From Megalodesulfovibrio gigas DSM 1382 = ATCC 19364 (GTDB lineage: Bacteria; Desulfobacterota; Desulfovibrionia; Desulfovibrionales; Desulfovibrionaceae): DNA of 61,242 nucleotides. The stretch covers positions 1,527,092 through 1,588,333 of the forward strand of contig NC_022444.1 of NCBI RefSeq assembly GCF_000468495.1. Reading direction: 5' to 3'. Below the pieces are notes generated by a model that did not search any database, was not told the origin of the DNA, and worked only from the letters and a program-made list of their open reading frames with translations. Shown here piece by piece: positions 1 to 61,242 of the stretch (its first letter is position 1; every line of letters starts with the position of its first letter). The position numbers were made by a program, and so were the translations under genes.

Positions 1-60
1 AAAGGGGGTTCGGGGGAAGAACCTTTCTTTAGAAAGGTTTTCCCCCGAGGACTCCTTTTA
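1..60. repeat. Family A hairpin repeat (truncated by window start)
   Basis: The core hairpin spans 11-47. The left arm CGGGGGAAGAACCTTTCT pairs with AGAAAGGTTTTCCCCCG across a TT loop, with one bulge, and outer bases 1-5 can pair with 54-58. It lies 14 bp beyond the stop of the minus-strand FMN dehydrogenase gene. The same unit recurs at 24503-24538, 46452-46485 and 61190-61226, and in damaged form at 48521-48571 and 54817-54864. A strong GC-rich stem next to a stop codon suggests a transcription terminator. Confidence 0.85.
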
Positions 61-73
61 AAGAGAACTTGTC

Positions 74-1111
74 CTAGCCGAGGGCAGAGGCCTGGCGCAG
101 GAAGAGGATTTTGCGGTCCACGTGGCGCACATCCGCCGTGGCCGTGAGCAGCATGGACTGGATGAGTTCCGTACGCATGTTGTTCAGCAGCAGGGCCACG
201 CCTTCGGGGCCACCGCCCACGGCGCCGATGGCCAGGGGACGGCCCACCAGCACGGCCTGCGCGCCCAGGGCCAGGAGCTTGAGCACGTCCGCCCCGTTGC
301 GCACGCCGCCGTCGGCCAGCACCACGGTGTGGTTGCGGACTTTTTCGGCAATCCAGGGCAGCACCTCGGCCACGCCGGGGGTGGAATCCAGCACCCGGCC
401 GCCATGGTTGGAGACCACAATGCCGGCCGCGCCGGCTTCCACGGCCATTTCCGCTTCCACGGGGGTCATGATGCCCTTGATGATGAAAGGCAGGCTGGTG
501 GCCTGGATGATTTCGCGCAGTTCGCGCAGGCTCTTGGGCCCCACGGGTTGACCCTTGAGGCTCATGGTGATGAGCCCTGCGCCGTCGATGTCCACGCCCA
601 CCGCCGCCGCACCGGCGGCTTCCGCTTCCTGGATGCGGGCGATGATTTCCTTCTGGCCGCGCGGCTTGATGATGGCGATGCCGCGGCCTTTGGTTCCCCG
701 GATGGCAGCCAGGCCGGAGGCGTACATGGTGGGGTCGGCGCCGTCGCCAATCATGCCCATCACTCCGGCCTGCAGGCTGCCCATGAGCAGGGAGGTGGCG
801 AGGTCTTCTTCGGAGATGGCCCCGCCCATATTGTATGTGGAGCCGGTCATGGGCGCCGCCATGACGGGCATGTCCAGCTCGCAGCCAAAGAGCGTCAGGT
901 TGGTGCGAGGGTCGCGCACCTCGTGAATGGTGCGCATGTTCAGCAGGTGATGGGCCAGGGCCTCCACATTGGCCTTGAACGAACTGCCGGAGCCTACGCC
1001 GCCCATGCCGGGGACTTCACCGCGGCAGGCAATGCCGTTGCAGAAGGAGCAGACGCGGCAATAGCCTTTGAGCTTTGCCCGTGCCGTCTCTCTGAGCGTG
1101 TTCAGATCCAT
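74..1111 (-). CDS. FMN-dependent 2-hydroxyacid dehydrogenase with N-terminal Cys cluster
   Basis: Predicted cytoplasmic flavoenzyme of 345 aa in the FMN_dh (lactate/glycolate oxidase) TIM-barrel family. It probably oxidises L-lactate or a related 2-hydroxyacid. The barrel motifs are visible: APMTGS near residue 87, the catalytic His/Arg motif SNHGGRVLD near 235, and the phosphate-binding LADGG and LVGRP strands. The N-terminus carries C18-x2-C21-x2-C24-x4-C29, which ordinary lactate oxidases lack, so an Fe-S or metal site is possible. It is the last gene of the lactate cluster, 39 bp after the LutB/A gene, with AGGAG about 9 nt before the ATG. Substrate is inferred from context. A type 2 IPP isomerase-like enzyme is a less likely alternative. 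Confidence 0.85.
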   Translation of the reverse strand: MDLNTLRETARAKLKGYCRVCSFCNGIACRGEVPGMGGVGSGSSFKANVEALAHHLLNMRTIHEVRDPRTNLTLFGCELDMPVMAAPMTGSTYNMGGAISEEDLATSLLMGSLQAGVMGMIGDGADPTMYASGLAAIRGTKGRGIAIIKPRGQKEIIARIQEAEAAGAAAVGVDIDGAGLITMSLKGQPVGPKSLRELREIIQATSLPFIIKGIMTPVEAEMAVEAGAAGIVVSNHGGRVLDSTPGVAEVLPWIAEKVRNHTVVLADGGVRNGADVLKLLALGAQAVLVGRPLAIGAVGGGPEGVALLLNNMRTELIQSMLLTATADVRHVDRKILFLRQASALG

Positions 1112-7618: not shown

Positions 7619-8899
7619 TTACAGGGTGTCTGCGTACAGTTCCACCACGTGGCGGACCTTGCGCGAGGCTCCGGCCTTGGACAGCATGTCCGTCATCTGC
7701 ATCATGCACGCCGGGCAGCCGGTGGCCACCGTTTCCGCCTGGGAATCGATGATGTGCTGCGCCTTCTTGCGGCCGATTTCCTGGGAGAGCTCATAGAACT
7801 TCAGGTTGAAGCTGCCGCCGCTGCCGCAGCAGGAGGCGGCGTCCGTCATTTCCACGAACTTCACGCCCGGGGTGGCCTTGAGCAGCGTGCGGGGCTGCGC
7901 GGTCACGCCCAGGGAGTTCCGCAGGTGGCAGGGGTCATGGTACGTCACGGTCTTGGTGCCTTCGGTGTCCATGGGGGACACCTTGAGCACATCCACCAGG
8001 AACGCGCTCACGTCCTTCACCTTATCCACGATCTTGGCCAGGGTGATCTGGTCGGACTTGTCCTCGTAGTATGCAGGCCAAATCTTTTTGATGGTGGAGG
8101 TGCAGGTGGCGCAGGGGGTGATCAGGTAATCGAAGTCGCCCTTGCGGAACAACTCGATGTTGGCTTTGACCATTTTCTGGAAGGACGCCACATCGCCGTT
8201 GGAGATGGCCGGGATGCCGCAGCAGGCCTGCCCCTTGGGCATGAACACGCCCACGCCGTGGTGCTTGAGCACCTTGAGCACGGCATGACCCACGCTGGGG
8301 TAGATTTTGTCCACCACGCAGCCGGGGTAGAAGGCTACCCGCAGGTTGGAGGCGCCGGCCGGGGTGTCCAGGCTGGGCACGTCCGAGTGCAGGGGCTTGG
8401 CGGCCAGGGTTTTGAAGTGCCGGTCGCCGATGATGGGCGCATTGAACCGGGCGCAGGAGGTGCCGAGCATGTCGTTCACCGGTTTGGTGAAGATGCCCTG
8501 GAACTTGGCGCCGAGGTCCAGAATGGTGTTGAACAGCCCGGGGTGGGTCAAGAGTTGCTGGAAGATCAGCTTCTGCGTGGGGCTCATCCCGTTGTAGGCG
8601 GCCATGATGGCCCGGGCCCGCAGGAAGATGTCCGTCACCTTGACGCCGCTGGGGCAGTTGGCCTCGCACGTGCCGCAGAGCAGGCAGCGGTTGAGCTTGT
8701 TGTTGACGCCTTCGGGGTCCTTGATCATCTCTTCGGCCAGGCCGGCCAGCAGGGCGATCTTGCCGCGGGTGACGTCGCCCTCACGCCCGCTCTGGGCAAA
8801 CACCGGGCACTGGGCCTGGCACATGCCGCAGCGCATGCAGGTGACGAGCTGGTCTTCCAGCGACTTGAGCATCTCGACGAGTTTTTTCGGGTCCGCCAT
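7619..8899 (-). CDS. Iron-sulfur subunit of (D-)lactate/glycolate dehydrogenase (GlcF/CCG type)
   Basis: A 426-aa electron-transfer partner of the adjacent GlcD flavoprotein. Two 4Fe-4S motifs occupy residues 21-31 (CMRCGMCQAQC) and 72-82 (CLLCGTCEANC). Two CCG modules follow, with ACCGIP and SCCGSGG. This arrangement matches GlcF and the D-lactate dehydrogenase subunit of Desulfovibrio organic-acid loci. The start at 8899 is chosen because GGAGG lies just upstream, only 11 nt after the glcD stop. Longer in-frame starts run deep into glcD. It probably passes electrons from lactate toward the membrane quinone pool or a cytoplasmic acceptor. Confidence 0.92.
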   Translation of the reverse strand: MADPKKLVEMLKSLEDQLVTCMRCGMCQAQCPVFAQSGREGDVTRGKIALLAGLAEEMIKDPEGVNNKLNRCLLCGTCEANCPSGVKVTDIFLRARAIMAAYNGMSPTQKLIFQQLLTHPGLFNTILDLGAKFQGIFTKPVNDMLGTSCARFNAPIIGDRHFKTLAAKPLHSDVPSLDTPAGASNLRVAFYPGCVVDKIYPSVGHAVLKVLKHHGVGVFMPKGQACCGIPAISNGDVASFQKMVKANIELFRKGDFDYLITPCATCTSTIKKIWPAYYEDKSDQITLAKIVDKVKDVSAFLVDVLKVSPMDTEGTKTVTYHDPCHLRNSLGVTAQPRTLLKATPGVKFVEMTDAASCCGSGGSFNLKFYELSQEIGRKKAQHIIDSQAETVATGCPACMMQMTDMLSKAGASRKVRHVVELYADTL

Positions 8900-19096: not shown

Positions 19097-20293
19097 TCAG
19101 TCCGAAAGCCGGCATTCGGCCAACTGGGCGTCCTTGGCTGCCAACAGCTGTTTGGCCAGCCGCAGGTACTGCAGCATGGGCCGGTTGGCCGGGCACACGA
19201 AGGCGCACATGCCGCAATCCAGGCAGGCGGCGATGTGGCGGGACCGGGTTTCCTCCACCAGATCGAATTCCACAAAGCGCGAGAGCATGCCGGGCTGGAT
19301 GCCCGCCGGGCAGGCCAGCACGCATTCCCCGCAGTTGATGCACGGGTTGGGGCCCACGGGCGGGAACTGGCCTTCCTGCACCACGGTGATGGCGGTGCAG
19401 TTTTCGGGCACGCCCACGGAAAGGTCGCACAGGGGGTCGCCACGCATGGGGCCGTCCAGGGCCACCTGCCAGCCCTTGCCATGCGGGGTGTCCGTGGCGT
19501 CCAGCAGGTCGCGCACGGGCATGCCCGTGGGCACGCGGTACACGCCGTCACCCACGGTGACGATGGCCTCCACCAGGGGCAGGCCGGTCTTGCCCACGCG
19601 CCCCACGCGGTACAGATCCGAGATGCTGATCACGTCCACATCGTCGGGCCGTTCCGAGCCGGTGGCTTTGCGCACCACCAGGGGATCGATGGTGTGGGGG
19701 TAGCGATCCGTGGAGGGGACGACGGTGCAGCTATACAGAGAGGTCTTCTTGCTCTCGGCCATCACCAGATAGACCGTGGCCGGCCGGATGGCTCGTTCCA
19801 GCAACTCCAGGCCGCGTTCCAGGGTGGGCTTGGCATCCTTGAGAAGCAGTTCGCTGACGATGACACCTGGCTCGGGGTTTAATCCGTTGATGACCAGGGT
19901 GCGCGAGGGGCGGAACTTGCCGGTATCGATGCCCAGCTCCAGGAGCAGGCGGCAGAGTTCTTCGCCCTTGATGGTGTCCAGATCGGCCACAGGCTCGGGC
20001 CGCTCAAACACGGGCGGGGCTTCGCCTTCCTTGGGAGCCGGCGCCGGGCCGATAACAATGGCCTGGGGCAGAATGTCTTCCACCATACCGTCGATGGTGG
20101 CATGCACATAGCCGGTGCCGTGCGGTCCCTTGGCGGGATTTTCGGCGATGACCTGCCCGCAGCTCACGAGCTGTTTTTTCTTCACCACGGGCTTGTGGAG
20201 GGGTTCGATGGGAATCCGCACCAGAGAGGGAATGGGAGCCTCCCGGAGGGTGTCCTTGATTTCCACGGATGTAGTCAATTGTGGCTTCATCAT
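19097..20293 (-). CDS. rnfC: Rnf complex subunit C
   Basis: A 398-aa peripheral cytoplasmic subunit, the site of NAD(H) or FMN interaction in studied Rnf complexes. Two 4Fe-4S motifs lie near the C-terminus: CINCGECVLACP near 317 and CLDCGMCAFVCP near 356. The flavin/NADH-binding region is N-terminal to these. The length is shorter than enterobacterial RsxC, which carries a long repeat tail. The start is one of two consecutive ATGs (20293 or 20290), only 5 nt after the cytochrome stop, with a weak ribosome site, suggesting coupling. Confidence 0.93.
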   Translation of the reverse strand: MMKPQLTTSVEIKDTLREAPIPSLVRIPIEPLHKPVVKKKQLVSCGQVIAENPAKGPHGTGYVHATIDGMVEDILPQAIVIGPAPAPKEGEAPPVFERPEPVADLDTIKGEELCRLLLELGIDTGKFRPSRTLVINGLNPEPGVIVSELLLKDAKPTLERGLELLERAIRPATVYLVMAESKKTSLYSCTVVPSTDRYPHTIDPLVVRKATGSERPDDVDVISISDLYRVGRVGKTGLPLVEAIVTVGDGVYRVPTGMPVRDLLDATDTPHGKGWQVALDGPMRGDPLCDLSVGVPENCTAITVVQEGQFPPVGPNPCINCGECVLACPAGIQPGMLSRFVEFDLVEETRSRHIAACLDCGMCAFVCPANRPMLQYLRLAKQLLAAKDAQLAECRLSD

Positions 20294-24364: not shown

Positions 24365-24388
24365 CCAGGGCATTTTGATCTTGAAAAA

Positions 24389-24550
24389 GGACATCGCGAG
24401 AGGGGAAACCTTTTGCAAAAGGTTCTCCCTCTCGCGATGTCCCCTTCCAAAACTTTCATAGTGACCTTGCATCACAATAAAAAAGTCTTTGGAAAGGGGG
24501 TTCGGGGGAAAACCTTTCTGAAGAAAGGTTTTCCCCCGAGAGTCCTTTTC
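24389..24550. repeat. Compound repeat B-linker-A (complete copy 1)
   Basis: Hairpin B spans 24389-24442, about 27 bp per arm with two mismatches and no real loop (ACATCGCGAGAGGGG... to ...CTCGCGATGT). A linker of about 60 nt follows. Hairpin A (24503-24538) has a perfect 17-bp stem with a GA loop. The pair lies between two convergent genes, starting 25 bp after one stop and ending 30 bp before the other, as expected of a bidirectional terminator. Confidence 0.9.
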
Positions 24551-24579
24551 AAAAACAACGTGCTCTGGCGTCTTTTGTG

Positions 24580-26280
24580 CTACTCCTGCGCCTCTTTTCC
24601 TTCGTCGCGCAGGCGGATTTCGGCACGTTTGATCTTGCCGCTGATGGTCTTGGGCAGTGCGCCCACGTATTCCACGATGCGCGGATACTTGTAGGGCGCG
24701 GTGACGGTTTTGACGTGCTGCTGCAGGGCCTTGGTCAGCTCGTCGGAGGGTGTGTGCCCTGGCGCGAGCACCACCGTGGCCTTGACCACCTGGCCGCGTT
24801 CGGGGTCGGGCACGCCGGTGACGGCGGCTTCCACCACGGCAGGGTGGGTGATGAGGGCGGATTCCACCTCAAACGGCCCGATGCGGTAGCCCGAGCTTTT
24901 GATGAGGTCGTCGGTGCGGCCCAGGAAGAAGAAGTAGCCTTCCTCATCCATCCAGGCCTTGTCCCCGGTGTGGTACCAGCCGTCGTAGCGGGCGGCGGCG
25001 GTGCGTTTGGGCTCGTCCAGGTAGCCTTGGAACAGGCCGAGGACGGGCTGTTCGCAGCGCACGCAGATTTCGCCTTCCTCGCCAGGAGGGCAGGGCTTGC
25101 CTTCCTCGTTCATGAGCACGAGATCCCAGCCCGGCGTGGGCCGGCCGATGGAGCCGGGCTTGGGCTCCATCCAGGGGAAGGTGGCCAGCTGCAGGGTGGT
25201 TTCGGTCTGGCCGTAGCCTTCGTAGATGGGCAGGCCGGTGGCGGCCTTCCAGGCGATGAAGACGCCGTCGTTGAGCAGTTCGCCGGCGGTGGTGCAGTGG
25301 CGCAGTTTGGAGAGGTCGTAATTGGCGAGGTTCTCCCGCACCAGGAAGCGGTACACCGTGGGCGGAGCGCAGAAGGAGGTGATGCCGTGGCCGGCCAGCA
25401 TCTCCAGCAGGCGCGAGGGCTCGAATTTGCCGCGGAAGTCCCAGGTGAACACCGTGGCCCCGGCCATCCACTGCCCGTAGAACTTGCCCCACACGGCCTT
25501 GCCCCAGCCGGTATCCGCCAGGGTGAGGTGCAGGTCGCCGGGGCGCAGGTTGTGCCAGTACACGCCGGTTACGTAATGGCCCAGGGGATAGGTGTGGCTG
25601 TGGGCCACCATCTTGGGCATGCCGGTGGTGCCGGAGGTGAAGAAGATGAGCAGCGGGTCTTCGCCGCCGGGTCTGCGCGCCAGCACCGGGGGCGTGGCCG
25701 GGGCGGCGTCGAGGATGGCGTCGTAGTTGTGCCAGCCGTCGGCGCGGCCGTCGCCCACCTGCACGCGCACGGTCAGGTCCGGGCACTGGGGCAGGGCCTC
25801 ATCCACGCGGGGGATGACGCCGGTTTCGGCAATGCAGCCCTTGATCTTGCCGAACTGCACGCGGAAGACGATGTCCTTGGGCGTGAGCAGGGCCGGGGAG
25901 GGCACGGGCACGGCGCCCAGTTTGTGCAGGGCCAGCATGGTGACCCAGAATTCCACCCGGCGGTGCAGGATGAGCATGAGGCGGTCGCCCTGACCCACGC
26001 CCAGGGCCTGCAGGGCGTTGGCCAGTTTGGTGGACTGGGTGGAGAAGTAGCCGAGATTGTATTCGCGGCGCACGCCGGCATCGTCCACATGGACCATGGC
26101 CGGCCGGGCAGGATCCACGGCAGCTTCGGCATCCAGAAAATCATAGGCGAAGTTGTAGCCTTCGGGGACGTCCATCCGGAAATCGCGCATGAAGTCGGCG
26201 TACGTGGCAGGCGTGAGACGCTGAACGGGGGGCATGGGCTGCTCGCTGGCGTTGAACGTGATGGTGGAAGGTGAGGACAC
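24580..26280 (-). CDS. Acyl-CoA synthetase (medium-chain/acetyl type, AMP-forming)
   Basis: A 566-aa AMP-forming ligase. Motifs: P-loop FFTSGTTGMPKMVAHSH near 212, YGQTET near 352, GWYHTGD near 434, and the catalytic-Lys region PKTISGKIKRAEIR near 545. The overall pattern is closest to the medium-chain acyl-CoA/benzoate-CoA branch. Substrate cannot be fixed from sequence. The start is GTG at 26280, 17 bp after the cupin regulator stop; an ATG at 26235 is an alternative, and neither has a strong ribosome site. It forms a two-gene unit with the HTH-cupin gene, which may sense its substrate or product. Confidence 0.88.
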   Translation of the reverse strand: MSSPSTITFNASEQPMPPVQRLTPATYADFMRDFRMDVPEGYNFAYDFLDAEAAVDPARPAMVHVDDAGVRREYNLGYFSTQSTKLANALQALGVGQGDRLMLILHRRVEFWVTMLALHKLGAVPVPSPALLTPKDIVFRVQFGKIKGCIAETGVIPRVDEALPQCPDLTVRVQVGDGRADGWHNYDAILDAAPATPPVLARRPGGEDPLLIFFTSGTTGMPKMVAHSHTYPLGHYVTGVYWHNLRPGDLHLTLADTGWGKAVWGKFYGQWMAGATVFTWDFRGKFEPSRLLEMLAGHGITSFCAPPTVYRFLVRENLANYDLSKLRHCTTAGELLNDGVFIAWKAATGLPIYEGYGQTETTLQLATFPWMEPKPGSIGRPTPGWDLVLMNEEGKPCPPGEEGEICVRCEQPVLGLFQGYLDEPKRTAAARYDGWYHTGDKAWMDEEGYFFFLGRTDDLIKSSGYRIGPFEVESALITHPAVVEAAVTGVPDPERGQVVKATVVLAPGHTPSDELTKALQQHVKTVTAPYKYPRIVEYVGALPKTISGKIKRAEIRLRDEGKEAQE

Positions 26281-42396: not shown

Positions 42397-45300
42397 ATGG
42401 CCACCGCCGCGGCGCAGTCTCCATTGGCCAGGGTGCTGGCCATGCTCCGGGAAGGGCTGGTCTCTGGGGGCAGACGTTCGCCGACAGAGGCAATGCTGCT
42501 GGCCGATCAGGCCCTGGGATTCCTGCAGCAGACCGATCCCGCCGCGCCAGCCACCGGCATGCAGCGCCAGGAACTGGCCTGTCTGCTGGGGTCGCTGGTC
42601 AGGACGTCGCGCGATGTCGCCTTCGTGAAATTCTGCTGGGAGCGTTTGCCTGCTCTGGGCGCCTGGGGTGAGGTGCTGGCTCTGCAATCCATCCAGACGC
42701 CCCTGACAACGCGACAGGTGGCCGCCGGGATGTTCCGGCAACTGCCTGCGGCGGTGCAGTTGCGCCTTGCCAACCGCATGCTGCTGCTGCCGGGGGCGGA
42801 TCGTGAGCAGACGGACTGGGCGTTGGAGGCCGTGCGGCGCATTGCGGTGGAAGATCCCGAAGAGGTGCTGGTCTGCCTGGAGCAGATGGAACACCACGGT
42901 TCGCCCCTGGCCTGGCCGCTGCAACGTGAACTGTTGCGCAGCCGCTTCGGCATCTGGTTGGGAAAACTGCTGAACATGCCGCTTTCCAGGGAGCAGAGCG
43001 CCTATCTTACCTGCACGGTGCACCGGCTGGGCGTGCGCAGTCTGGCGGCAGCCCTGGTGCGGCACATGCCCAAGGCCGATGTGCCCACCCTGGCGCGCTT
43101 CGGTCGTCTGGCCCGGGATGTCTGCATGCCGGAAGATGCGTCCGTGGCCGGATTGGTGGAGGCGATGCTGCGGCATCCGGCGCGGGATGTGCGTCTGGCT
43201 GCCCTGGACTGTCTGGTGCAGTGGGAATCCGCCAAGGCGGCGGAGGCGGCGCGGCGTCTGCTGACATCCCATCCCAAGGACCGCAGTTTTTTGCTGGCCA
43301 CGGTGCTGCGCGGCGCGCCCGGTCTGTGGCGGGAGGTGCTGGACGGCCTGCCCGAGACGGAGCAGACCGAGGTGGTGCTTGACGCCGTCTGGTTGTTGGC
43401 CCGGGCCGACGTCCGCGGGCTGGACGAGGTGTTGCGGCGGTTGCGCCTGTCTGGCGGGGCTGACGCGGCTGGCGGCCGTGCCGGGCATGACACCAGCACG
43501 GACAGCACGGATATGGGGCTGGTGCTGGAAGGACTGGCCGCCTGGCGGCAGGCTGCCAGCCGCTGGGCACAGGCAACGGCCTGGCCGGATGTTGCGGCGC
43601 CTGTGCCCAGCATGGCCTTGCCGCCATCGTCTGCCGGGGGGGCATCGGGCAAGGCTGCCGTGCTGGGGCCGGCGCGTCAGGAGTCCGGGACGGCCTTTTC
43701 CTCCCTGCGGCTGGAGGCGGTGGACGTCTCCCGTTCGGAATTTGAGCAATGCACCTTTACTGCCTGCCAGTTGCCACGCCTGTTTGCCGAGCAGGCGCGG
43801 TTCGCCGGCTGCGTCTTCAAGCAGGTCGTGTTCATGGGTGGCGAATTCCGGGAAACGCAGTTCGTGGACTGCCGTTTCGAGGACTGCGCCATGGAGGGGG
43901 CTGTCCTGGAACGCACTTCCCTGGCGCGCTGTCAGTTCCTGGGCGTCAGTCTGGCGGGCGTGGTCTGGGAGGCCAGCCGGCTGGAGGATTGCCGGTTCGA
44001 GGCCTGCGACCTGTCCGGCGCGTTTTTTTCGCGCGTGGAGTGCCAGGCCGTGGGGCTGATGGCCTGCTCCCTGCAGGCAAGCCGCTGGAATCAGGTGCGG
44101 GCCAGGGCCGTGGAATGGACCCAGTGCTGCATGGAGGGCATGGCCGTTCGGGAGCTGGACTGCATTGATGGCGCGGTGCTGGCGTGCAATCTGGCCGGGG
44201 CCCGGGTGGAGCGTATCCGCGGCGATGCGCCGCCCCTGCTGGACTGCGCCCGCCAGGCCGTGGAATCCCGCCTGGAGCAGGCCGCTGCTGCGGGCACGGT
44301 TCCTGCGTCGCCGCCGGCAGCCCTGCAGGCCGAGGAAGGCCGGCGCATGCTGGCCGGCTGCATCGAGACATGGATGGAAACCCGGGACGCTGCGCGCCGG
44401 GAAGCGGCCATGCAGGCCAACAATCGCCGCCGGCTGCTCTGGGCGTCCTGTTTGTTTCCGGTCAGGGCCGGTGCCCTGCTTACCGCGTTGCCGGCCTTGC
44501 TGGAGGCAGGCAGCGTGCCCCGGGGCGGCGGTGTGCCACCTGCAGGGCATACCTCCTGCCGCATTCAGGGCTATCATCCCGGCCCTCAGGCTCTGGCCTT
44601 CCTCAGGGAATGGGGGCTGGCGCACCACGCCTTGCCGGGCGCGGCGGCGCTGATTGCCGAGGAGACCATTCCGCTGGAATCGCTGTGCGCCATCGGCAGC
44701 ACCGGGACCATTGCCCAGACCTTGGCTTCGGACCTGGATTTGTGGTGCTGCTACGACAAGGCCGCCGTTTCCCCCGGGCAGCGTGCGGCCCTGGAGCGCA
44801 AGTGCAGGCACATCGAGGCCTGGGCCGCGGAGGTCCTGGGTGTGGAAGTGCATTTTTTCCTGATGGACATGGAGGCCGTGCGGCAGAACCAGTTTGGCTT
44901 CAGCAGCGCTGAGAGTAGCGGCACGGCCCAGGCCCGGCTGCTCAAGGAGGAGTTCTACCGCACCGGCATCCATTTGGCCGGCAAGACGCCCTTGTGGTGG
45001 CGCGCGCCGGCCGGCGCACCCGACACGGTGTACGCCCGGCTGCGCCGGTGGAGCGAAGGGGATGCCTCGTCGTCACGGGTGATGGACATGGGCAGCCTGG
45101 CCGCCATCCCCCGGGAGGAGTATTTCGGCGCGGCGCTGTGGCAGATGGTCAAGGCGCTCAAGAGTCCGTTCAAGTCGGTGATGAAGGTGGCCTTGCTGGA
45201 TCACTACGTGCGGGAAAACGCCGCCTCACCGCTGTTGTGCGACCGCATCAAGGACCGCATTCATCGCGGGGTCCGGGACATGTGGGAGATAGACCCGTAC

Positions 45301-46425
45301 GCCGTCCTGTTTCGCGAGGTGTACGAGCAATACGAGCGGACCGGCAACACGGAGGCCCAGGGGCTCATGCGGCTGGCCTTCCGGCGCAAGACGGGCCTGC
45401 AGTTTGCCCAGGCTTCGGGTGTCGGGCGGGGGATGAGCGCGGCGGATTACTTTTTTCCGCACAGCGAGGCAGGGGTGGCGGTTCAGCTGGAATCACGTCC
45501 CGCCACCGGCGAGGACCCCCGGCGCGAGGCGCAGGCGGCGGATTCCTTTACCGAGGGCCTGAAGCTGGGCGAGCGGATCATGCGGTTTCTGCTTTCCACC
45601 TATGCGCGCATCCATGCCGCCCTGGATTCCGGCGCGGTGGAAGCCCATGTGAGCATGGACGATCTGCGCAAGCTGCAGCGGCGTATCAGCGCCTTTTTCA
45701 CGCCACGGCCGCTGAAGATCATGCGCATTCCGTTTCTGGATCGCCGGCAGGAACCTTTCCGCAGTCTGGAGTTCCTCAGCCGCGGCCAGCCGGGGCAGAT
45801 GCTGGTCTGGGATGTGTTCGGGGAGCCAACCGAGGCCGCCGGCACCACCGGAGCTGTCGGGCCGGGTTCGTCGCCAGGGTCTGGCGGGTCTGGCGGGTCT
45901 GGCGGGTCGGCAGGACCGGCAGGAGCAGGCGCGCCGCGCGCCGCACGCAGCCCGCGGCAACTGCTCAATCGGGAGCATTCCCCCGAGCGCCTCTGCGCCT
46001 GGCTGCACGCCAATGGCCTGTGCGGACCGCACACGCAGATTGCCGCCCAGGCCCTGGTGGCTCCAATGACCCTGGCCGATCTGCAGGTCCTGCTGGAGGC
46101 GGTGCGCCAGTGCTTTCCCCTGGATCGCACCTTTGCCCCGCCCATGGAACAGCTTCTGGCCCCGGAAGTGGTCACGGCCTGCATGGTGATCGGCAATTTT
46201 ACGGCCCAGCGGGAAGAGCGGGCCTTGCGGCAGGCGGCGCTGGTCTACGCCACGTCCTGGGGAGAACTGTTCTGCCGGCCCCAGGTGCGCGACCTGGAAC
46301 GCCTGGAGCACGCCCCCAAGGCCTGCCTGCAGGAGAATTGCCACGCCCCCCTGGCGTCGGGCATGGCTTTCATGTTCCACAAGCCCGCGCGCTCCCAGTG
46401 TCGGGAGGTGTTTCTTGTCAGATAG
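42397..46425 (+). CDS. cyaA: Class I adenylate cyclase with HEAT-like and pentapeptide-like N-terminal regions
   Basis: A 1342-aa protein. The catalytic part (about 715-1140) matches class I adenylate cyclases: GSTGTIAQTLASDLDLW, with the nucleotidyltransferase acidic pair D779 and D781, then VLGVEVHFFLMDM, KTPLWWR and LLDHYV blocks. The N-terminal 400 residues look like Ala/Leu-rich HEAT-type helical repeats. Residues 435-615 form a pentapeptide-like beta-helix (CRFEDC, CRFEACDLSGAFF). A Gly/Ser linker near 1160-1180 leads to a C-terminal helical domain. E. coli CyaA is 848 aa, so about 500 aa are extra. Translation is coupled to the upstream HD-GYP gene. Confidence 0.85.
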   Translation: MATAAAQSPLARVLAMLREGLVSGGRRSPTEAMLLADQALGFLQQTDPAAPATGMQRQELACLLGSLVRTSRDVAFVKFCWERLPALGAWGEVLALQSIQTPLTTRQVAAGMFRQLPAAVQLRLANRMLLLPGADREQTDWALEAVRRIAVEDPEEVLVCLEQMEHHGSPLAWPLQRELLRSRFGIWLGKLLNMPLSREQSAYLTCTVHRLGVRSLAAALVRHMPKADVPTLARFGRLARDVCMPEDASVAGLVEAMLRHPARDVRLAALDCLVQWESAKAAEAARRLLTSHPKDRSFLLATVLRGAPGLWREVLDGLPETEQTEVVLDAVWLLARADVRGLDEVLRRLRLSGGADAAGGRAGHDTSTDSTDMGLVLEGLAAWRQAASRWAQATAWPDVAAPVPSMALPPSSAGGASGKAAVLGPARQESGTAFSSLRLEAVDVSRSEFEQCTFTACQLPRLFAEQARFAGCVFKQVVFMGGEFRETQFVDCRFEDCAMEGAVLERTSLARCQFLGVSLAGVVWEASRLEDCRFEACDLSGAFFSRVECQAVGLMACSLQASRWNQVRARAVEWTQCCMEGMAVRELDCIDGAVLACNLAGARVERIRGDAPPLLDCARQAVESRLEQAAAAGTVPASPPAALQAEEGRRMLAGCIETWMETRDAARREAAMQANNRRRLLWASCLFPVRAGALLTALPALLEAGSVPRGGGVPPAGHTSCRIQGYHPGPQALAFLREWGLAHHALPGAAALIAEETIPLESLCAIGSTGTIAQTLASDLDLWCCYDKAAVSPGQRAALERKCRHIEAWAAEVLGVEVHFFLMDMEAVRQNQFGFSSAESSGTAQARLLKEEFYRTGIHLAGKTPLWWRAPAGAPDTVYARLRRWSEGDASSSRVMDMGSLAAIPREEYFGAALWQMVKALKSPFKSVMKVALLDHYVRENAASPLLCDRIKDRIHRGVRDMWEIDPYAVLFREVYEQYERTGNTEAQGLMRLAFRRKTGLQFAQASGVGRGMSAADYFFPHSEAGVAVQLESRPATGEDPRREAQAADSFTEGLKLGERIMRFLLSTYARIHAALDSGAVEAHVSMDDLRKLQRRISAFFTPRPLKIMRIPFLDRRQEPFRSLEFLSRGQPGQMLVWDVFGEPTEAAGTTGAVGPGSSPGSGGSGGSGGSAGPAGAGAPRAARSPRQLLNREHSPERLCAWLHANGLCGPHTQIAAQALVAPMTLADLQVLLEAVRQCFPLDRTFAPPMEQLLAPEVVTACMVIGNFTAQREERALRQAALVYATSWGELFCRPQVRDLERLEHAPKACLQENCHAPLASGMAFMFHKPARSQCREVFLVR
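45877..45908 (+). repeat. 9-bp tandem repeat encoding the Gly/Ser linker of the cyclase
   Basis: GGGTCTGGC is repeated 3.6 times in frame and encodes the GSG linker between the catalytic part and the C-terminal domain. Confidence 0.85.
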
Positions 46426-46451
46426 GGCAACTTGCTTTTGAAACGCGTTGT

Positions 46452-46590
46452 CGGGGGAACCCTTTCTATAGAAAGGGTTCCCCCGAACCCCCCTCCCAAA
46501 GATTTTTTTGGGAGTACAAGATACTATTAAAGTTTTGGAAGGGGAAAGTGCGAGAGGGGAGAACCTTTTTCAAAAGGTGTCCCCTCTCGC
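46452..46590. repeat. Compound repeat A-linker-B (complete copy 2, inverted)
   Basis: Hairpin A (46452-46485) has a perfect 16-bp stem with an AT loop. Hairpin B (46550-46590) has arms GCGAGAGGGG and CCCCTCTCGC. The 64-nt linker, read on the opposite strand, matches the linker at 24441-24502, so the unit is inverted relative to that copy. It lies between two convergent genes, whose stops are 26 bp away on each side. Confidence 0.9.
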
Positions 46591-46615
46591 CACTCGTTTT
46601 CAAGGGTAAGTTGTC

Positions 46616-48328
46616 CTAAACGTCCACGCCCATTTTTTCCACGCTGGCCAGGCCGCCCTGGACGGCGATGGATTCGCGGCCGGCCTGATCGAGCATGATC
46701 TGCGCCTCGTAGGCCCGGGTGCCGGTGTTGCACAGCAGGACGAGCTTTTTGTCCGCGGGCAATTCGCCAAGGCGGCCCGGGATCTCGTCTTGGGGAATGG
46801 CCAGGTAGTTGGGCATCTTGAGCCGTTCCACGGCGCGCACGCCGTCGGGATTGGCCCGCACATCCAGGAAGCAGAGGCCGTCCTGTTCCGCATCCGCCCA
46901 CATGGTGCCGAATTCGTCGGGGGAGACGGGCCGGTGCCGGCCGGCCAGGAGGTTGTCCGCGGCGTTGGCCAGGGCGTTGAGGATGTCCATGGCGGCGGCA
47001 AAGGGCGGCGAGTAGGCCATTTCTACGTTGGAGAGCTCGTCCACGGTGAGGCCGCGGGGCAGCAGGCCGGCCACCACGTTGATGCGGCCCACCACGGCAT
47101 CCATCTGGCTGGTGAAGCCCTGGATGCCCAGCACGCGCCGGGTGGCCTTGTCCACCACCAGATCCAGATACATCAGGGCCTTGGAGGGGTAGAAGTGGGC
47201 GCGGTCCAGCTGGCTCAGGTGCACGTTCACGGCGTCGTAGCCGGCGCGCTTGGCCCCGGCCAGACACAGGCCCGTGCCGGTGAGGGCATGGTCGAACAGC
47301 TTGACGCAGAAGGAACCCACCGCGCCGGGGAACGTGCGCTGCAGGCCGGCCAGGTTGTCCCCGATGATGCGCCCCTGGCGGTTGGCCATGGAGCCCATGG
47401 GCAGGTGCATGAGCTGGCCCGTGAGCAGGTTGGGCAGGGCGATGCAGTCGCCGCCGGCATAGATGTCCGGGTCGGTGGTCTGGAGGTATTCATTGACCAC
47501 AATGCCGCCGTTGGGGGCCACGTCCAGCCCGGCAGCCTTGGCCAGTTCCGAATTGGGGGTGACGCCCACGGCCACGATGGCCAGATCGGCCTCGATGACG
47601 CGCTTGTCCGTCACCACGCGCTCCAGCTTGCCATCACCCTCGAAGGCCACCACTTTTTCGCCAAAGTGCATGGTCACGCCGTGTTTTTCCAGATTCTGCA
47701 CGGCCATGGTCGCCAGTCCTGGAGACACGAGGTTCGGCATGAGCTGGGGCATGAATTCCACCACCGTGGTCTCAATGCCCCACATGTCCGCAAAGGCCTC
47801 GGCCATTTCCAGCCCGATGAAGCCTGCGCCCACCACCACGGCCTTGCCCACCTTGCCGGCGGCCACCATGTCTTTGATGTAGGCAGCGTGGGCCAGGTTG
47901 GCCACGGCGCTGATGCCGGGCAGGTCTTCGCCGGGGGCATTGAGCCGGCGCGGGGAAGCACCGGTGGCGATGACGAGCTTGTCGTAGGGCAGGTCTTCGG
48001 TGGCGCCGCTGGATTCATGGCGCACGGTGACGGTTTTTTTGTCACGGTTGATGGCCAGGGCGCGGATGTTGGCCAGGATGGCCACGCCCTTGGCGTCGCG
48101 GAAAAACGGGGCGTCGCGCAGCACGTGGAAGGACGTGGTGCTCAGTTCCTTGATGTCACTGACATCGCCGGAAACGTAATACGGAATGCCGCAGCCGCCG
48201 TATGAAAAATGGCTGGTGGCCTCCAACACGGTGACGTCGGCATGAGGATCGAGCCGCTTGATGCGGCATGCCGCCTTTGGTCCCAGGGCCACACCGCCGA
48301 TCACAAGAACACGTTGCGAGATGGACAT
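46616..48328 (-). CDS. CoA-disulfide reductase-like flavoprotein fused to rhodanese domain
   Basis: A 570-aa fusion. Residues 1-450 form a pyridine-nucleotide:disulfide oxidoreductase: FAD motif VLVIGGVALGPKAA, the single redox Cys in SYGGCGIPYYVSGD near 43, NAD motif VVGAGFIGLEMAE and IYAGGDC. Residues 470-570 form a rhodanese domain with active Cys in LLCNTGTRAYEA. Such CoADR-RHD enzymes reduce CoA disulfide, persulfides or polysulfide with NAD(P)H. In a sulfate reducer a role in sulfur or oxidative-stress handling is plausible. AAGGAGG precedes the ATG at 48328. Confidence 0.92.
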   Translation of the reverse strand: MSISQRVLVIGGVALGPKAACRIKRLDPHADVTVLEATSHFSYGGCGIPYYVSGDVSDIKELSTTSFHVLRDAPFFRDAKGVAILANIRALAINRDKKTVTVRHESSGATEDLPYDKLVIATGASPRRLNAPGEDLPGISAVANLAHAAYIKDMVAAGKVGKAVVVGAGFIGLEMAEAFADMWGIETTVVEFMPQLMPNLVSPGLATMAVQNLEKHGVTMHFGEKVVAFEGDGKLERVVTDKRVIEADLAIVAVGVTPNSELAKAAGLDVAPNGGIVVNEYLQTTDPDIYAGGDCIALPNLLTGQLMHLPMGSMANRQGRIIGDNLAGLQRTFPGAVGSFCVKLFDHALTGTGLCLAGAKRAGYDAVNVHLSQLDRAHFYPSKALMYLDLVVDKATRRVLGIQGFTSQMDAVVGRINVVAGLLPRGLTVDELSNVEMAYSPPFAAAMDILNALANAADNLLAGRHRPVSPDEFGTMWADAEQDGLCFLDVRANPDGVRAVERLKMPNYLAIPQDEIPGRLGELPADKKLVLLCNTGTRAYEAQIMLDQAGRESIAVQGGLASVEKMGVDV

Positions 48329-48431
48329 GTTTCCTCCTTGACGAGGCGAAACGGGATTTTCAAGGAGGGAGATACGAAAGATGTGCGGGAAAGGCAAGGC
48401 TGCGTCAAATCAGACAGAATCACTCTGATAA

Positions 48432-48571
48432 GGACATTGCGAGAGGGGACACCTTTTGGAAAAAGGTTCTCCCCTCTCGCGCTCTCCCCTTCCAAAACTC
48501 TGATAGTATCCTGTAATTCTAAAAAAAGTCTTTGGAAGGTGTTCCCCCGAGAGTCCTTTTCACACGTGCAT
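48432..48571. repeat. Compound repeat B-linker-A (copy 3, A hairpin truncated)
   Basis: Hairpin B (48439-48480) is intact. The linker (CCCCTTCCAAAACT... to ...AAAAGTCTTTGGAA) matches copy 1. Hairpin A has lost its left arm and keeps only GTTCCCCCGAGAGTCC. It lies at the end of the dpp operon, 5 bp beyond its last stop, upstream of the divergent-facing side of the flavoprotein gene. Confidence 0.85.
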
Positions 48572-48575
48572 TGCC

Positions 48576-49592
48576 TTAGATCCTGCCGTCGCGCAGGGCG
48601 TGGCAGGCCACCACGGCGCCGTCGGGCTGGGTCAGGGGCGATGGGACTTCCAGGCGGCAGGGCTCGTAGGCATAGGGGCAGCGGGGGTGGAAGACGCAGC
48701 CCCGCGGCAGATTGATGGGCGTGGACAGCTCGCCGGTCAGGCGGATGCGCTTGCGTCGGCCGCGGCCCAGGGTGGGGATGGCCGAAAGCAGGGCCTGGGT
48801 GTAGGGGTGGCGCGGCGTTTCGAAAAGCTGGCGCGCCGTGGCCAGTTCGCACAAGGATCCCAGGTACATCACGGCCACGCGGGTGGCGATGCGGCGCACC
48901 ACGTTCAGGTCGTGGCTGATGAACAGGTACGTCAGGTTGTGGCTTTCCTGCAAATCCATCATCAGATTGAGAATCTGCGCCTGGATGGAGACGTCCAGGG
49001 CGCTGATGGGTTCGTCCGCCACAATGCATTCCGGGTCCACGATAAGGGCCCGGGCAATGGAGATGCGCTGGCGCTGGCCGCCGGAGAACTCGTGCGGATA
49101 CTGCTTGGCCCAGCTGGCGCGCACGCCCACCTGTTCCATCACCGCGGCCACCCGCTCGGCAACCTGCGCCGCATTGAGATTGGGATGATGGAAGCGCAGG
49201 GGCTCTTCCAGGATGCGTTGCACGGGCATGCGCGGGTTCAGGGAGGCGTATGGATCCTGAAAGATCATCTGCAGCCTGGTGCGGAAGGGCAGCAGTTTGG
49301 CCGGGGGCAGGTGGTCGATGCGCTGATCGCGGTAGCGTATCTCGCCGCTGTTGGGCTGGTGCAGGCAGACCACGGCCCGGGCCAGGGTGGACTTGCCGCA
49401 GCCGCTTTCGCCCACCACGGCCAGGGTCTCGCCCTGGCGCACGTCCAGGCTCACGTTGTTCAGGGCGTGCACCACGGTGCGCTTGAGGGTGGGGCGGCCG
49501 CCGGAAAAACGCAGCTGCTCCAGCAGCCCACCGCTGATATCGAAGTGCTTGACGACGTTGCGAATGGAAACGAGTGCCGTGCTCATGATCAT
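48576..49592 (-). CDS. Dipeptide/oligopeptide ABC transporter ATPase (DppF type)
   Basis: One of two cytoplasmic ATPases energising peptide uptake. The 338-aa protein has Walker A GESGCGKST near 56, Q-loop FQDPYASLNPR, signature FSGGQRQRISIARAL near 170, Walker B CIVADEP, and the OppF/DppF C-terminal zinc-like CVFHPRCPYAYEPC motif. Two starts are possible (49592 or 49586). The first overlaps the upstream ATPase stop as ATGA, which is typical of coupled ABC ATPase pairs. It is the last gene of a five-gene operon. Confidence 0.93.
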   Translation of the reverse strand: MIMSTALVSIRNVVKHFDISGGLLEQLRFSGGRPTLKRTVVHALNNVSLDVRQGETLAVVGESGCGKSTLARAVVCLHQPNSGEIRYRDQRIDHLPPAKLLPFRTRLQMIFQDPYASLNPRMPVQRILEEPLRFHHPNLNAAQVAERVAAVMEQVGVRASWAKQYPHEFSGGQRQRISIARALIVDPECIVADEPISALDVSIQAQILNLMMDLQESHNLTYLFISHDLNVVRRIATRVAVMYLGSLCELATARQLFETPRHPYTQALLSAIPTLGRGRRKRIRLTGELSTPINLPRGCVFHPRCPYAYEPCRLEVPSPLTQPDGAVVACHALRDGRI

Positions 49593-50590
49593 TCCACCAG
49601 ATGGCAGGCGGCCAGAACGCCGGTTTGGCCGCAGGGCCGCAGGGCCGGGGCGTCTTCGCTGCAGGCATGGATGCGCACCGGGCAGCGGGGATGGAAGGCG
49701 CAGCCAGTGGGCGTGTTGTACAGGCTGGGCATGATGCCGTGAATCTGCGCCAGCCGGCCGGTGCCGGGCTCGCCGGCATGGGTCTGGGGCAGGGCGGCCA
49801 GCAGGCCCTGGGTATAGGGGTGCTGAGGCGCGTGCACCACCTGCTCCGTGGGGCCGATTTCCACAATCCTGCCGGCGTACATCACGGCCACGCGGTCCGT
49901 CACCTGGGAGACCACGGCCAGATCGTGGGTGATGAGGAGCAGTCCCATGCCTTCATGCTCGGCCAGCTCCAGCAGCAGGTCCAGAATCTCGGCCTGGATG
50001 GTCACGTCCAGGGCCGTGGTGGGCTCGTCGGCGATGATGAGGGACGGCCGGGTGAGCAGGGCAATGGCGATGACGATGCGCTGGCGCATGCCGCCGGAAA
50101 ACTGGTGCGGGTACTGCGCCATCCGCTTTTCCGGCGAGGGGATGCGCACGGCGCGCAGGGTCTCGATGGCGATGTCCTGGGCTTCCCGGCGGCTCAGACG
50201 GCGGTGAGCCTGCAGGGTTTCGACCATCTGCGTGCCGATGGTCAGCACGGGGTTGAGGGTCATCATCGGATCCTGAAAGATCATGGAGATCCGGTCGCCG
50301 CGCAGGGGGCGCATTTCCTGTTCCGAGAGCGGGGCAAGGTCGCGCCCCTCGAACAGGATGGAGCCGCCACTGATGCGCCCGGGCCGGCTGATGAGCTTGA
50401 GGATGGAGAACCCGGTGATGGACTTGCCGGCGCCGCTTTCGCCCACCAGCCCCAGCCGCTCGCCACGGTGGAGGGTGAAGGAGACGTCGCGCACGGCCAC
50501 CAGGGTTTTGGTCTTGGTGGGGAAGCTCACTTCCAGATTTTTTACTTCCAGCAGCGGCGCTGCCGGGGAGGGTGTCGTCATGGCATGCAT
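49589..50590 (-). CDS. Dipeptide/oligopeptide ABC transporter ATPase (DppD type)
   Basis: The partner ATPase, 333 aa. Motifs: Walker A GESGAGKS near 52, FQDPMMTLNP, signature FSGGMRQRIVIAIALL near 163, Walker B IIADEP, and C-terminal CAFHPRCPVRIHAC. The ATG at 50590 lies 3 nt after the permease stop, with AAGGGG 8 nt upstream. Specificity is set by the binding protein, not by this subunit. Confidence 0.93.
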   Translation of the reverse strand: MHAMTTPSPAAPLLEVKNLEVSFPTKTKTLVAVRDVSFTLHRGERLGLVGESGAGKSITGFSILKLISRPGRISGGSILFEGRDLAPLSEQEMRPLRGDRISMIFQDPMMTLNPVLTIGTQMVETLQAHRRLSRREAQDIAIETLRAVRIPSPEKRMAQYPHQFSGGMRQRIVIAIALLTRPSLIIADEPTTALDVTIQAEILDLLLELAEHEGMGLLLITHDLAVVSQVTDRVAVMYAGRIVEIGPTEQVVHAPQHPYTQGLLAALPQTHAGEPGTGRLAQIHGIMPSLYNTPTGCAFHPRCPVRIHACSEDAPALRPCGQTGVLAACHLVE

Positions 50591-50592
50591 GG

Positions 50593-51636
50593 CTACATCC
50601 CCTTGTACAGCCGGGGGTTCATGACATCGCGGCAGAAGTCCCCCAGCAGGTTGATGGACAGGATGAGCACCACCAGCAGCGATCCGGGGAAGATGGTGAT
50701 CCACCACGAGCCGGACAGCAGGTACTCGAAGCCCGCGTTGATGAGCGAGCCCAGGGAGGGTTGCGTCACCGGCATGCCGAAGCCCAGGAAGGAGAGGCCG
50801 GCTTCGGTCATCATGGCGTTGGCCACCTGCACCGTGCTGATGACCAGCACCGGCGAAAGCGTGTTCGGCAGGATGTGCCGCAGCATGATGCGCCAGGTGG
50901 GCAGACCCACCACGCGGGCGGCCTCCACATATTCCTTCTTCTTTTCCGCCAGCACGCTGGCGCGCACGGTGCGGGCGTATTGCGGCCATTCGGCCAGCCC
51001 GATGATGCAGATGAGAATGGGCACGGCCAGCCGTTCGTAACTGGCCACCCCGAACGCCGTGCGGAACATGGCCCCAATGAAGATGGCCACCAGCAGCGTG
51101 GAGAAGGACAGCTGCACGTCCGCCAGACGCATGAGCAGTATTTCCACCCGGTTGCCCAGGTATCCGGCCGTGAGCCCGATGGCGATGCCCAGCACCGCCT
51201 GCACCAGCACCGCGCCCAGACCGATGACCAGGGACACGCGCATGCCGTAGAGCATGGTGGAGAGCAGATCCCGGCCCTGATCATCCGCGCCCAGGACAAA
51301 GGCCGGCAGCTGGTCCGGCGCGCCGCCCTCCATCCAGGCCGGCGGCGTCTGGGCCATCATCAGGTCCAGGGAGGCGGGGTCGTACGGGTTCGTGGGCGCA
51401 ATCCACGGGCAGGCAAAGCTGGAGACCAGCAGCACCAGCAGAATCCCCAGGCTGGCCTTGGCCACGGTGTCGCGCCGGAAGCTGTACATCAGGTGCGAAT
51501 CGGCAAAGCGTCCCCAGGCTGCAGGCATGAGGAACCGGCCGCCAGCCACCCACAGGAAAAACAAGACCAGCCCGGCGATGGCCAGGGCATTGATGGCTGG
51601 TTGCGTCCAGGACAGGAAGAAAAACAAGATCTCCAC
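50593..51636 (-). CDS. Peptide ABC transporter permease (DppC type)
   Basis: A 347-aa inner-membrane permease. Six or more helices, a DDQGRDLLSTMLYGMRVSLVIG segment characteristic of DppC/OppC, and the EAA loop that contacts the ATPases (EYVEAARVVGLPTWRIMLRHILPN). It has an extra N-terminal helix pair compared with E. coli DppC (300 aa). It follows the DppB-type gene by 10 bp. Confidence 0.92.
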   Translation of the reverse strand: MEILFFFLSWTQPAINALAIAGLVLFFLWVAGGRFLMPAAWGRFADSHLMYSFRRDTVAKASLGILLVLLVSSFACPWIAPTNPYDPASLDLMMAQTPPAWMEGGAPDQLPAFVLGADDQGRDLLSTMLYGMRVSLVIGLGAVLVQAVLGIAIGLTAGYLGNRVEILLMRLADVQLSFSTLLVAIFIGAMFRTAFGVASYERLAVPILICIIGLAEWPQYARTVRASVLAEKKKEYVEAARVVGLPTWRIMLRHILPNTLSPVLVISTVQVANAMMTEAGLSFLGFGMPVTQPSLGSLINAGFEYLLSGSWWITIFPGSLLVVLILSINLLGDFCRDVMNPRLYKGM

Positions 51637-51646
51637 GGTTGCGCTC

Positions 51647-52627: not shown

Positions 52628-52645
52628 GGTGCGCCCGGCATGAAG

Positions 52646-52679
52646 ACGGCGCCGAGGTTCGTTCGAGCCCCGGCGCCGT
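52646..52679 (-). promoter_or_regulatory. Intercistronic hairpin between binding-protein and permease genes
   Basis: Perfect 9-bp arms ACGGCGCCG and CGGCGCCGT enclose a 16-nt loop that can extend the stem. Such hairpins after binding-protein genes usually stabilise the upstream mRNA and limit permease expression. Confidence 0.7.
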
Positions 52680-52704
52680 GGTTAATCAGGAATGATCGTT
52701 CACC

Positions 52705-54249: not shown

Positions 54250-54879
54250 AGAGTCTCCTTGGGTTGCGCAGAACTGCAATATATCGCGCGGGCCCCATGC
54301 CCGGCGAAAATCCCCGGACATCACGTCCGGAGGAAAAGGCGTATGACGGATTTGGTCCTGTCGCGCCCGCAGGCAAGGCACGCCGCGGGACGACAGCTCA
54401 ACATGGAAGAAATTGGCCCGCTTGGCAAGAAAAATCGAAGATTGCGAAATCAGGCACAATGTTGGAAAATGTTTGAAACATCGCAGGGGCTGGCGAGATG
54501 TGTGACGATACTGCGGCGATCACGTGATTTTTTCTCGACGTTTTGCCTGGTCCTGGGCAGAGCGCATTCTGACCGTGGACGAATGGTAAGGTTTCTGATA
54601 CCCAGACCATGGCCTGTTGTTTTTGATGATCCCGACGCGCACGGGAAGCCGCTCGCCGACGGTCCCCCCCGGTCTTCCTCTGCAGAGGGGTGCCGGGGCG
54701 TGGGACGCCCGAACTGCGAGAGCTTGCTGCGCACGCGAGGGCGGCTCGGATGCGATGACGCTGTGCCGGGCCGCTCTTCGTTATGCTGGTGCACAGTTAA
54801 TATGCTGTCGGTATAATAAAAGTCTTTGGAAAGGGGGGTCTTCCCCCGACAGTTCTTTTCAAAGATACTGTTGCGCTTC
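54250..54879. other. 630-bp region without a convincing gene
   Basis: The region lies upstream of the dpp-type operon and should contain its promoter. I see a short hairpin CCGGAC-N5-GTCCGG at 54313-54329, a moderately AT-rich stretch near 54420-54540, and a damaged family A repeat at the far end. Short open frames on both strands show no recognisable protein. It may hold a degraded gene or a small RNA, but nothing supports either strongly. Confidence 0.5.
54817..54864. repeat. Damaged family A repeat with linker remnant
   Basis: AAAAGTCTTTGGAAAGGGGG followed by TCTTCCCCCGACAGTTCTTTTC matches the flanks of the complete A element, but the inner stem (AACCTTTCT/AGAAAGGTT) is missing. It lies 16 bp beyond the permease stop. 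Confidence 0.8.
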
Positions 54880-55971: not shown

Positions 55972-56012
55972 GCTGCAGGCTGATAGTCCCTGAGGGGAAA
56001 GAGTGCAACGTT

Positions 56013-56027
56013 CGCAACATGGTTGCG
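56013..56027. promoter_or_regulatory. Inverted repeat upstream of the permease
   Basis: CGCAAC-ATG-GTTGCG has perfect 6-bp arms and lies in the likely promoter region of the permease gene. It might be an operator for a metal-responsive repressor. No regulator gene is adjacent. Confidence 0.35.
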
Positions 56028-56054
56028 CAATGGGTTACACAGTTGCATCAATCG

Positions 56055-57194: not shown

Positions 57195-57222
57195 GCGGAT
57201 CCCTTGTGAGGGTTGCGGTTGT

Positions 57223-58353: not shown

Positions 58354-58478
58354 GCGGGGGCGTTCCATGTTCGGACAGGCTGCTGGAGGAATTGTCCGCT
58401 CCTTACACGTCCAGACGCGGCACATCAACCCGCCAGATGCATTGCTGCCGGATCAGGAACCGGGTAGTGTCACGAATT

Positions 58479-61136: not shown

Positions 61137-61189
61137 GGGGCAAGGATTCCGAAGGGCGGCGAGAGCGTATTGCTCTTGAGAAGAACTCT

Positions 61190-61242
61190 CGGGGGAACAC
61201 CTTTCTGAAGAAAGGTTCTTCCCCCGAACCCCCTTTCCAAAG
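61190..61242. repeat. Family A hairpin repeat (inverted, truncated by window end)
   Basis: A 17-nt left arm (CGGGGGAACACCTTTCT) pairs with AGAAAGGTTCTTCCCCCG (61209-61226) around a GA loop. The flank AACCCCCTTTCCAAAG is the reverse complement of the flank seen at 24489-24502, so this copy is inverted. The window stops inside it. Confidence 0.88.

Follow-up and report, generated by a model that had tools for sequence, protein, structure and literature searches.

The compound hairpin repeat of Megalodesulfovibrio gigas, in which a hairpin B, a linker and a hairpin A follow one another, is the core of an element of about 202 bp (24366-24567 in the window) that has imperfect terminal inverted repeats of the form TAGRGCA...TGCYCTA. 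Since the ends of the repeat also flank an IS630 transposase gene in this genome, the element is most readily interpreted as an IS630-type MITE that duplicates a TA target. As judged from sequence, it is very probably a non-autonomous MITE that is moved in trans by an IS630-family transposase and rebuilds a stop codon on insertion; the transposition itself we infer. The window is the whole stretch of DNA that was analysed, 61,242 nucleotides of the M. gigas genome, and it holds the following copies and parts of the element:

24366..24567, plus strand: full composite element, B left and A right, 202 bp, from the 30-copy alignment, with cmsearch matches at 24366-24465 and 24473-24567
24366..24389, plus strand: left terminal inverted repeat (B end), CAGGGCATTTTGATCTTGAAAAAG, compared with the IS630 ends of locus L093
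24396..24435, no strand: hairpin B (GCGAGAGGGG ... CCCTCTCGC)
24441..24500, no strand: linker, both ends of which pair as a third hairpin (helix 3)
24503..24538, no strand: hairpin A (CGGGGG ... CCCCCG)
24545..24567, minus strand: right terminal inverted repeat (A end), from the copy alignment
46423..46618, minus strand: full composite element in inverted orientation (A left, B right) that takes up the space between convergent genes
46423..46425, plus strand: element-terminal TAG that is the stop of the plus-strand gene 42493-46425
46616..46618, minus strand: element-terminal TAG (CTA on the plus strand) that is the stop of gene 46616-48304
48428..48578, plus strand: copy whose left end is degraded and whose hairpin A is mostly deleted, between tandem minus-strand genes
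48576..48578, minus strand: element-terminal TTA that is the TAA stop of gene 48576-49592 (minus)
1..76, plus strand: A half of a copy, cut by an assembly gap of a single N immediately before position 1
61161..61242, minus strand: A half of a copy that continues past a single N outside the window (130 bp overall)
54810..54878, plus strand: remnant with the linker end, a deleted hairpin A and a degraded right end

The sequence-only reading of this DNA had described the B-linker-A unit at 24389-24550, an inverted one at 46452-46590 and one with a truncated hairpin A at 48432-48571, and all three were confirmed; CCTTCCAAAACT, at one mismatch or fewer, occurs three times in the window against a shuffle mean of 0.11. 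Its proposal that the whole unit is copied, linker included, was also borne out, as the unit recurs across the M. gigas genome, but the length of about 160 bp given to the copied unit was too short. When 30 genome copies were aligned with their flanks, conservation continued past those limits: on the B side it ran to TAGRGCATTTTAATTTTGAAAAAGGAC, and on the A side to TAGRGCAAGTTATCTTTGAAAGGAG or TAGAGCACGTTGTTTTTGAAAAGAAC in inverted form. The linker forms a third hairpin, in which CCCCTTCCAAAACTTT pairs with AAAAAGTCTTTGGAAAGGGG (98.7% of the cells paired in helix 3), and hairpins B and A bear similar CCCC-TTCC-AAA-CTTT tails that face each other and pair to form it. The consensus folding energies are -93 and -99 kcal/mol on the two strands, and the stems are about 96% conserved, against 83-86% for the ends. 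Covariation is small, with a two-sided change in 5 of 51 pairs, and its measures exceed 500 of 500 shuffles. The lengths of N-free end-to-end copies cluster near 97 and near 202 bp. The short forms were considered as separate families and this was partly rejected, N being present in 33 of the 47 forms of 160 bp or less; the N-free A and B forms of about 97 bp are real. That the repeat matches no named family holds for Rfam (0 matches over the gathering score in the window) but not for the ends, which place the element with IS630.

Copies in the window had been placed 5-55 bp from stop codons, and they do lie near stops, but this distance understates the relation, as the terminal triplets at 74-76, 46423-46425, 46616-46618 and 48576-48578 are themselves stop codons. 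The CTA at 74-76 is the stop of gene 74-1111 (minus), and the inverted element at 46423-46618 has the convergent genes 42493-46425 (plus) and 46616-48304 (minus) around it. In G001, the one genome of the genus that the search of relatives gave, the ortholog of the gene ending at 46425 has the same last residue, by eye, and the stop TAA. The stop of gene 48576-49592 is identical in G001, where another palindrome abuts it. In the copy at 24366-24567 the outer triplets are CAG/CTG, one change from TAG/CTA. This copy and that at 46423-46618 lie between convergent genes, as had been claimed for two copies, and a third at 61161 does likewise; the ORF at 24577-26274 (plus) is an antisense shadow, with Pfam AMP-binding on the minus strand there. 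Three copies had been called A-only. That at 54810-54878 is a real remnant; those at 1-60 and 61190-61242 are not A-only, being cut by single-N gaps: past the left N are the linker and a degraded hairpin, and past the right N are the right arm of B and the element end. The window borders themselves, C2:1527091 and C2:1588334, are single-N assembly gaps within repeat copies. A second, small palindromic family with TA ends (TAGTGTTGCGTCC...) is nested against the first at TA at C2:340589-340650, 1708153 and 3189720, and a relative of it (L102) abuts, in the G001 ortholog of gene 48576, the stop that is occupied here by the main repeat. Imperfect repeats in coding DNA were also seen in the window at 2344-2393, 8650-8699, 8803-8852 and 19189-19238; they are perhaps iron-sulfur cysteine motifs.

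The element is abundant in the genome. A blastn search with one copy gave 342 first-look candidates, of which 40 were scored, all at E 1.5e-38 or better. In a sample of 1.224 Mb including the window, 32% of the M. gigas genome, nhmmer found 148 clusters, 131 of them above 25 bits, against 14 hits in total and two above 25 bits in the reversed-sample control; by extrapolation from this sample there would be about 400 copies per genome. Gene calls were home-made, and those of the final caller were used for the junction, stop and protein-length counts. The 131 copies above 25 bits are located at convergent (71), tandem (56) and divergent (2) junctions, with one inside a called gene and one at an edge, and a copy is present at 68 of the 138 convergent junctions, the sample also containing 768 tandem and 139 divergent ones. 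Copies equally common inside genes or at promoters were thus looked for and not seen (one in a gene and two divergent among 131). An earlier gene caller, antisense-prone in places, gave 6 of 148 divergent copies against 2 of 148 with the final calls. The same repeat accounts for most gaps of the M. gigas assembly: 62 of the 68 N-runs in the sample lie in a copy or within 110 bp of one, and N occurs inside or within 60 bp of 67 of the 148 copies. For two Desulfovibrio genomes, the available part of one report describes assembly gaps in GC-rich hairpins, for which terminators were suggested, those of ND132 being all at junctions of two coding regions (PMC3409199); the likeness is one of description only.

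The coincidence with stop codons is exact and frequent. Element ends were counted within five mismatches (197), and for 150 of them a stop on the same strand lies in the range -60 to +300; the end falls exactly on the stop in 98 of these 150, while it is off by 1-3 nt in 2. The earlier gene caller pointed the same way (88 of 135), and for ends at one mismatch or fewer the coincidence is 66 of 93. Seen per element, 43 of the 74 end-to-end elements have one end on a stop, 9 have both and 22 none, and no A/B bias was found at stops (B ends 32/74, A ends 24/60, untyped ends 5/14). Seen per gene, an element end coincides with the stop codon in 95 of the 996 genes that were scored; the codon is TAG in 87 of them and TAA in 8. 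Such a coincidence could in principle arise if insertions fell at random near gene ends and genes were truncated at the TAG of the element, which would stop one frame in three; this is highly improbable, as ends 1-3 nt off a stop are so few, and none of the proteins that end at element stops is shorter by more than 10 aa in 24 comparisons. Among these comparisons 17 are within 3 aa and one protein is longer by more than 10, and for other genes (n=162) the figures are 110 within 3 aa, 14 shorter and 15 longer by more than 10. The G001 orthologs of four stop-coincident genes have, by eye, the same protein end.

The bases around the junctions fit insertion into a TA. T is first in 171 of the 197 repeat ends and A is second in 184. 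Where an element has just one end on a stop, the base beyond its other end is G in 23 cases, A in 15, C in 4 and T in 1, so that the far-side purine is found in 38 of 43, against a background of 0.368 at intergenic TA (p=3e-12); a TA duplication inside TAG or TAA would be expected to leave such a base. Occupied stops are also commoner where C or T precedes (YTAR, 57/169) than where G or A does (RTAR, 38/386; p=5e-11). The word CTAG is rare in genes: with the final gene calls there are 38 in coding DNA, against 61 at stops that are free and 39 at those that hold an element, and with the genes of the earlier caller 65 were observed in coding DNA against 314 by a maximum-order Markov estimate. 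The YTAR preference alone is not an obvious cause of the excess at stops: of the YTAR sites left free, 116 are at stops, 136 fall in the 300 bp downstream, 178 elsewhere in intergenic DNA and 195 in coding DNA.

The ends themselves point to IS630. The end pattern, at one mismatch or fewer, has 191+194 matches in the M. gigas genome, against 3+3 for the reversed pattern. A search with Pfam DDE_3 found two IS630 loci in this genome, L093 and L098. The first (L093 1399-2398, 1000 bp) is bounded by TAGAGCATATTAATTTTGAAA / TAGAGCATTTTAATATTGAAA, ends like those of the repeat, and has a TA at either side. The NCBIfam model of the IS630 transposase, NF033545, matches its DDE frame at 110 bits (cut-off 100), as does Pfam DDE_3, and another frame matches the front part of NF033545 at 54 bits, below the cut-off. 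The second has one recognisable end, with one change, and looks truncated. Since the best-preserved copy spans two overlapping frames, the activity of the transposase is assumed; a relative in another record, L162, has the same layout. Among IS630 relatives in named records, 5 of the 9 checked have ends starting with TAGAG or nearly so, the best of the nine being that of Desulfovibrio sp. Roe453_bin138 (L162 1-998), with TAGAGCATTTTAACTTTGAAA at both ends. The traits of a MITE were found: the element is short, lacks a transposase gene, has terminal inverted repeats and many copies, and its ends are common to IS630 in the same genome. In the available part of its description, the IS630-family element ISY100 inserts at TA and duplicates it (PMC2170065), and the title of a 1991 paper in the reference list of the same source states that IS630 prefers TA in CTAG.

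The claim that the repeat is mobile is thus well supported by the IS630-type ends, the transposase gene with matching ends, the many copies and the few end matches in G001 (3+3). A precise empty site was not seen; at the clearest locus, C2:1923352, G001 is without the element and its spacer differs beyond it. Neither viral contigs (searched with one exact pattern) nor phages or plasmids gave a match. Mobilisation of REP/BIME-type palindromes by a RAYT (TnpA-REP, Y1) transposase would be another route, as the pair of inverted palindromes joined by a linker is BIME-like and, in the available part of PMC3733652, ORFs that flank GTAG-REPs are reported to receive TAG stops from the repeat termini. 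It was rejected for want of a PF01797 (Y1_Tnp) match in the M. gigas genome, where 5 of 14 control genomes have one, and is most unlikely also because there is no GTAG tag (the base before TAG is C in 95 and G in 29 of 197 ends) and because the ends and TA junctions fit IS630.

Related ends are distributed beyond M. gigas. Some copies or fragments are present in G001 (blastn gives 17 matches at E<=1; L132 and L141 are examples), where the end pattern gives 3+3 against 2+0 in the control and the spacers differ at the compared sites. In several other genera of the family the ends are clearly above control, most of all in genome G016 (167+177 against 1+1). In G016, a homogeneous MITE of about 128 bp (L197-L216) has IS630-type ends and an unrelated interior, with 26 end matches in 400 kb. 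A T stands before the end in 24 of these 26, and 12 ends lie in 44 convergent junctions against 10 in 251 tandem ones. Genome G026 contains two IS630 copies with TAGAGCATTTCAACTTTYAAA ends (L092, L096) and five elements of 115-151 bp with similar ends (L217-L236). Ends of the same kind are seldom on stops in these two genomes (2/16 in G016 and 4/14 in G026), which counts against the preferred reading. As related ends differ in interior between genera, different cargoes are carried, and the placement at stops is strongest in M. gigas.

The interior of the element can also be followed on its own. Of 58 other genomes, 16 contain the tail motif, with 1-7 matches each, against 82 in M. gigas, and hairpin A with a CCCCCTTTCCAAAGACTTTT-like tail occurs near gene ends without IS630 ends in G001 (L156), G024 (L133, L142, L150 and L157) and G016 (L134); the neighbour of L156 is presumably a groEL-like gene, as we take it to be from its GGM-rich end. 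Because hairpin A and the tail occur in relatives without these ends, the cargo may be a gene-end hairpin captured by a transposon. The same occurrences at gene ends in the family, as behind the groEL-like gene, the presence of the tail motif in other genomes and the placement of the copies at gene ends would also fit a bidirectional terminator module of the host that had spread through recombination or gene conversion and not by transposition. Such a module is nevertheless improbable given the sharp ends of IS630 kind, the TA/TAR junction signature, the near absence of U-tract terminators inside the element and the G016 MITE, whose interior is unrelated and which has a convergent preference of the same kind.

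This last observation also bears on function; the bidirectional terminator that had been described is here no more than a plausible role. A hairpin followed directly by a U-tract was found on just 2 of the 68 strands of 34 N-free entries, a count that holds one overlapping double entry (S2 3059039) dropped elsewhere (75 pairs becoming 74). No canonical U-tract terminator was found at the copies within 46000-61242 of the window, and such terminators are no commoner at convergent junctions with the element (16/130 strands) than at those without it (17/130). The convergent enrichment was set aside as evidence for termination, because the G016 MITE of unrelated interior has it too. On the other hand, at 21 of the 39 convergent junctions filled by an end-to-end element at most 30 bp remain on either side of it, and transcripts therefore have to end in the element or enter the opposite gene. 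Termination or 3'-end protection by the element is plausible, and could as readily be true as false.

The preferred reading, an IS630-type MITE, can be put together as follows. An IS630-family (Tc1/mariner-type) transposase would move the element in trans; the outermost TA would be the duplicated target, and the element proper would start with G(A/G)GCA. The favoured insertion site would be YTAR, in many cases CTAG, a word that coding DNA here seldom contains and that is frequent at TAG and TAA stops. With G as the first base of the element, an insertion at the TA of TAG or TAA would restore an in-frame TAG; the gene would therefore keep its full length and its native 3' region would be displaced beyond the element. 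Transcripts from either side might then end in, or be shielded by, its very stable structure, a step we infer and judge to be evenly balanced between right and wrong. A further and more doubtful suggestion is that the element has become the standard gene tail of this genome, a cassette bringing a stop codon and a two-way transcript end, whose spread would have been shaped by a transposase target (CTAG/YTAR) that coincides with a word seldom met in coding DNA, and which the host may keep for transcript ending or mRNA protection. Such a cassette would hold about half of the convergent junctions and supply the stop of about 1 in 10 sampled genes. The preferred reading also makes the element a clear and testable case of how a transposon may fill a compact genome with little harm: its target is infrequent in coding DNA and frequent at stop codons, and its first base rebuilds the stop. 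Should its structure end transcripts as well, the 3' ends of many genes would have been rewritten by a single element.

Within the literature examined, the combination of IS630-type ends, a three-hairpin interior, exact and frequent stop placement and presence at half of the sampled convergent junctions appears to be new. No Desulfovibrio MITE of a comparable kind was found among literature titles, which is no proof of absence, and the available part of a MITE review (PMC10969869) makes no mention of IS630, stop codons or Desulfo. Among the closest known systems are three of Streptococcus pneumoniae, in the accessible parts of whose descriptions several likenesses appear. RUP, found with IS630-Spn1, is also small and non-autonomous, with IS630-like ends, a TA target, high copy number and a convergent excess (PMC3049150, PMC2229807), but it is 107 bp long and reported to favour IS elements, whereas the M. 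gigas element has about 202 bp, three hairpins and a preference for stop codons; the likening is by description only. BOX supplies the stop codon of 36 CDSs and, in the portion available, there is no strong evidence that these are truncated (PMC3049150); as described there, BOX is modular and has other ends, while here 95 of 996 scored genes end at one exact terminal triplet. SPRITE is a terminator-like repeat with strong convergent enrichment (PMC3049150), differing, in the part of its description at hand, by a U-rich tract and by the lack of significant similarity to pneumococcal IS ends, in contrast to the IS630-type ends and hardly any canonical U-tract in M. gigas. The GTAG-tagged REPs and BIMEs share palindromes, high copy number and termini that give TAG stops, as far as the available text describes them (PMC3733652), unlike the M. 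gigas element, which has IS630-type ends, no GTAG tag and no RAYT found in its genome. Finally, MITEPsy1 of Pseudomonas syringae is likewise a MITE, inserting at CTAG or YTAA, but it has a 4-nt duplication and ISPsy2-like ends, and the part of its description that is available carries no mention of placement at stop codons (PMC3189936).
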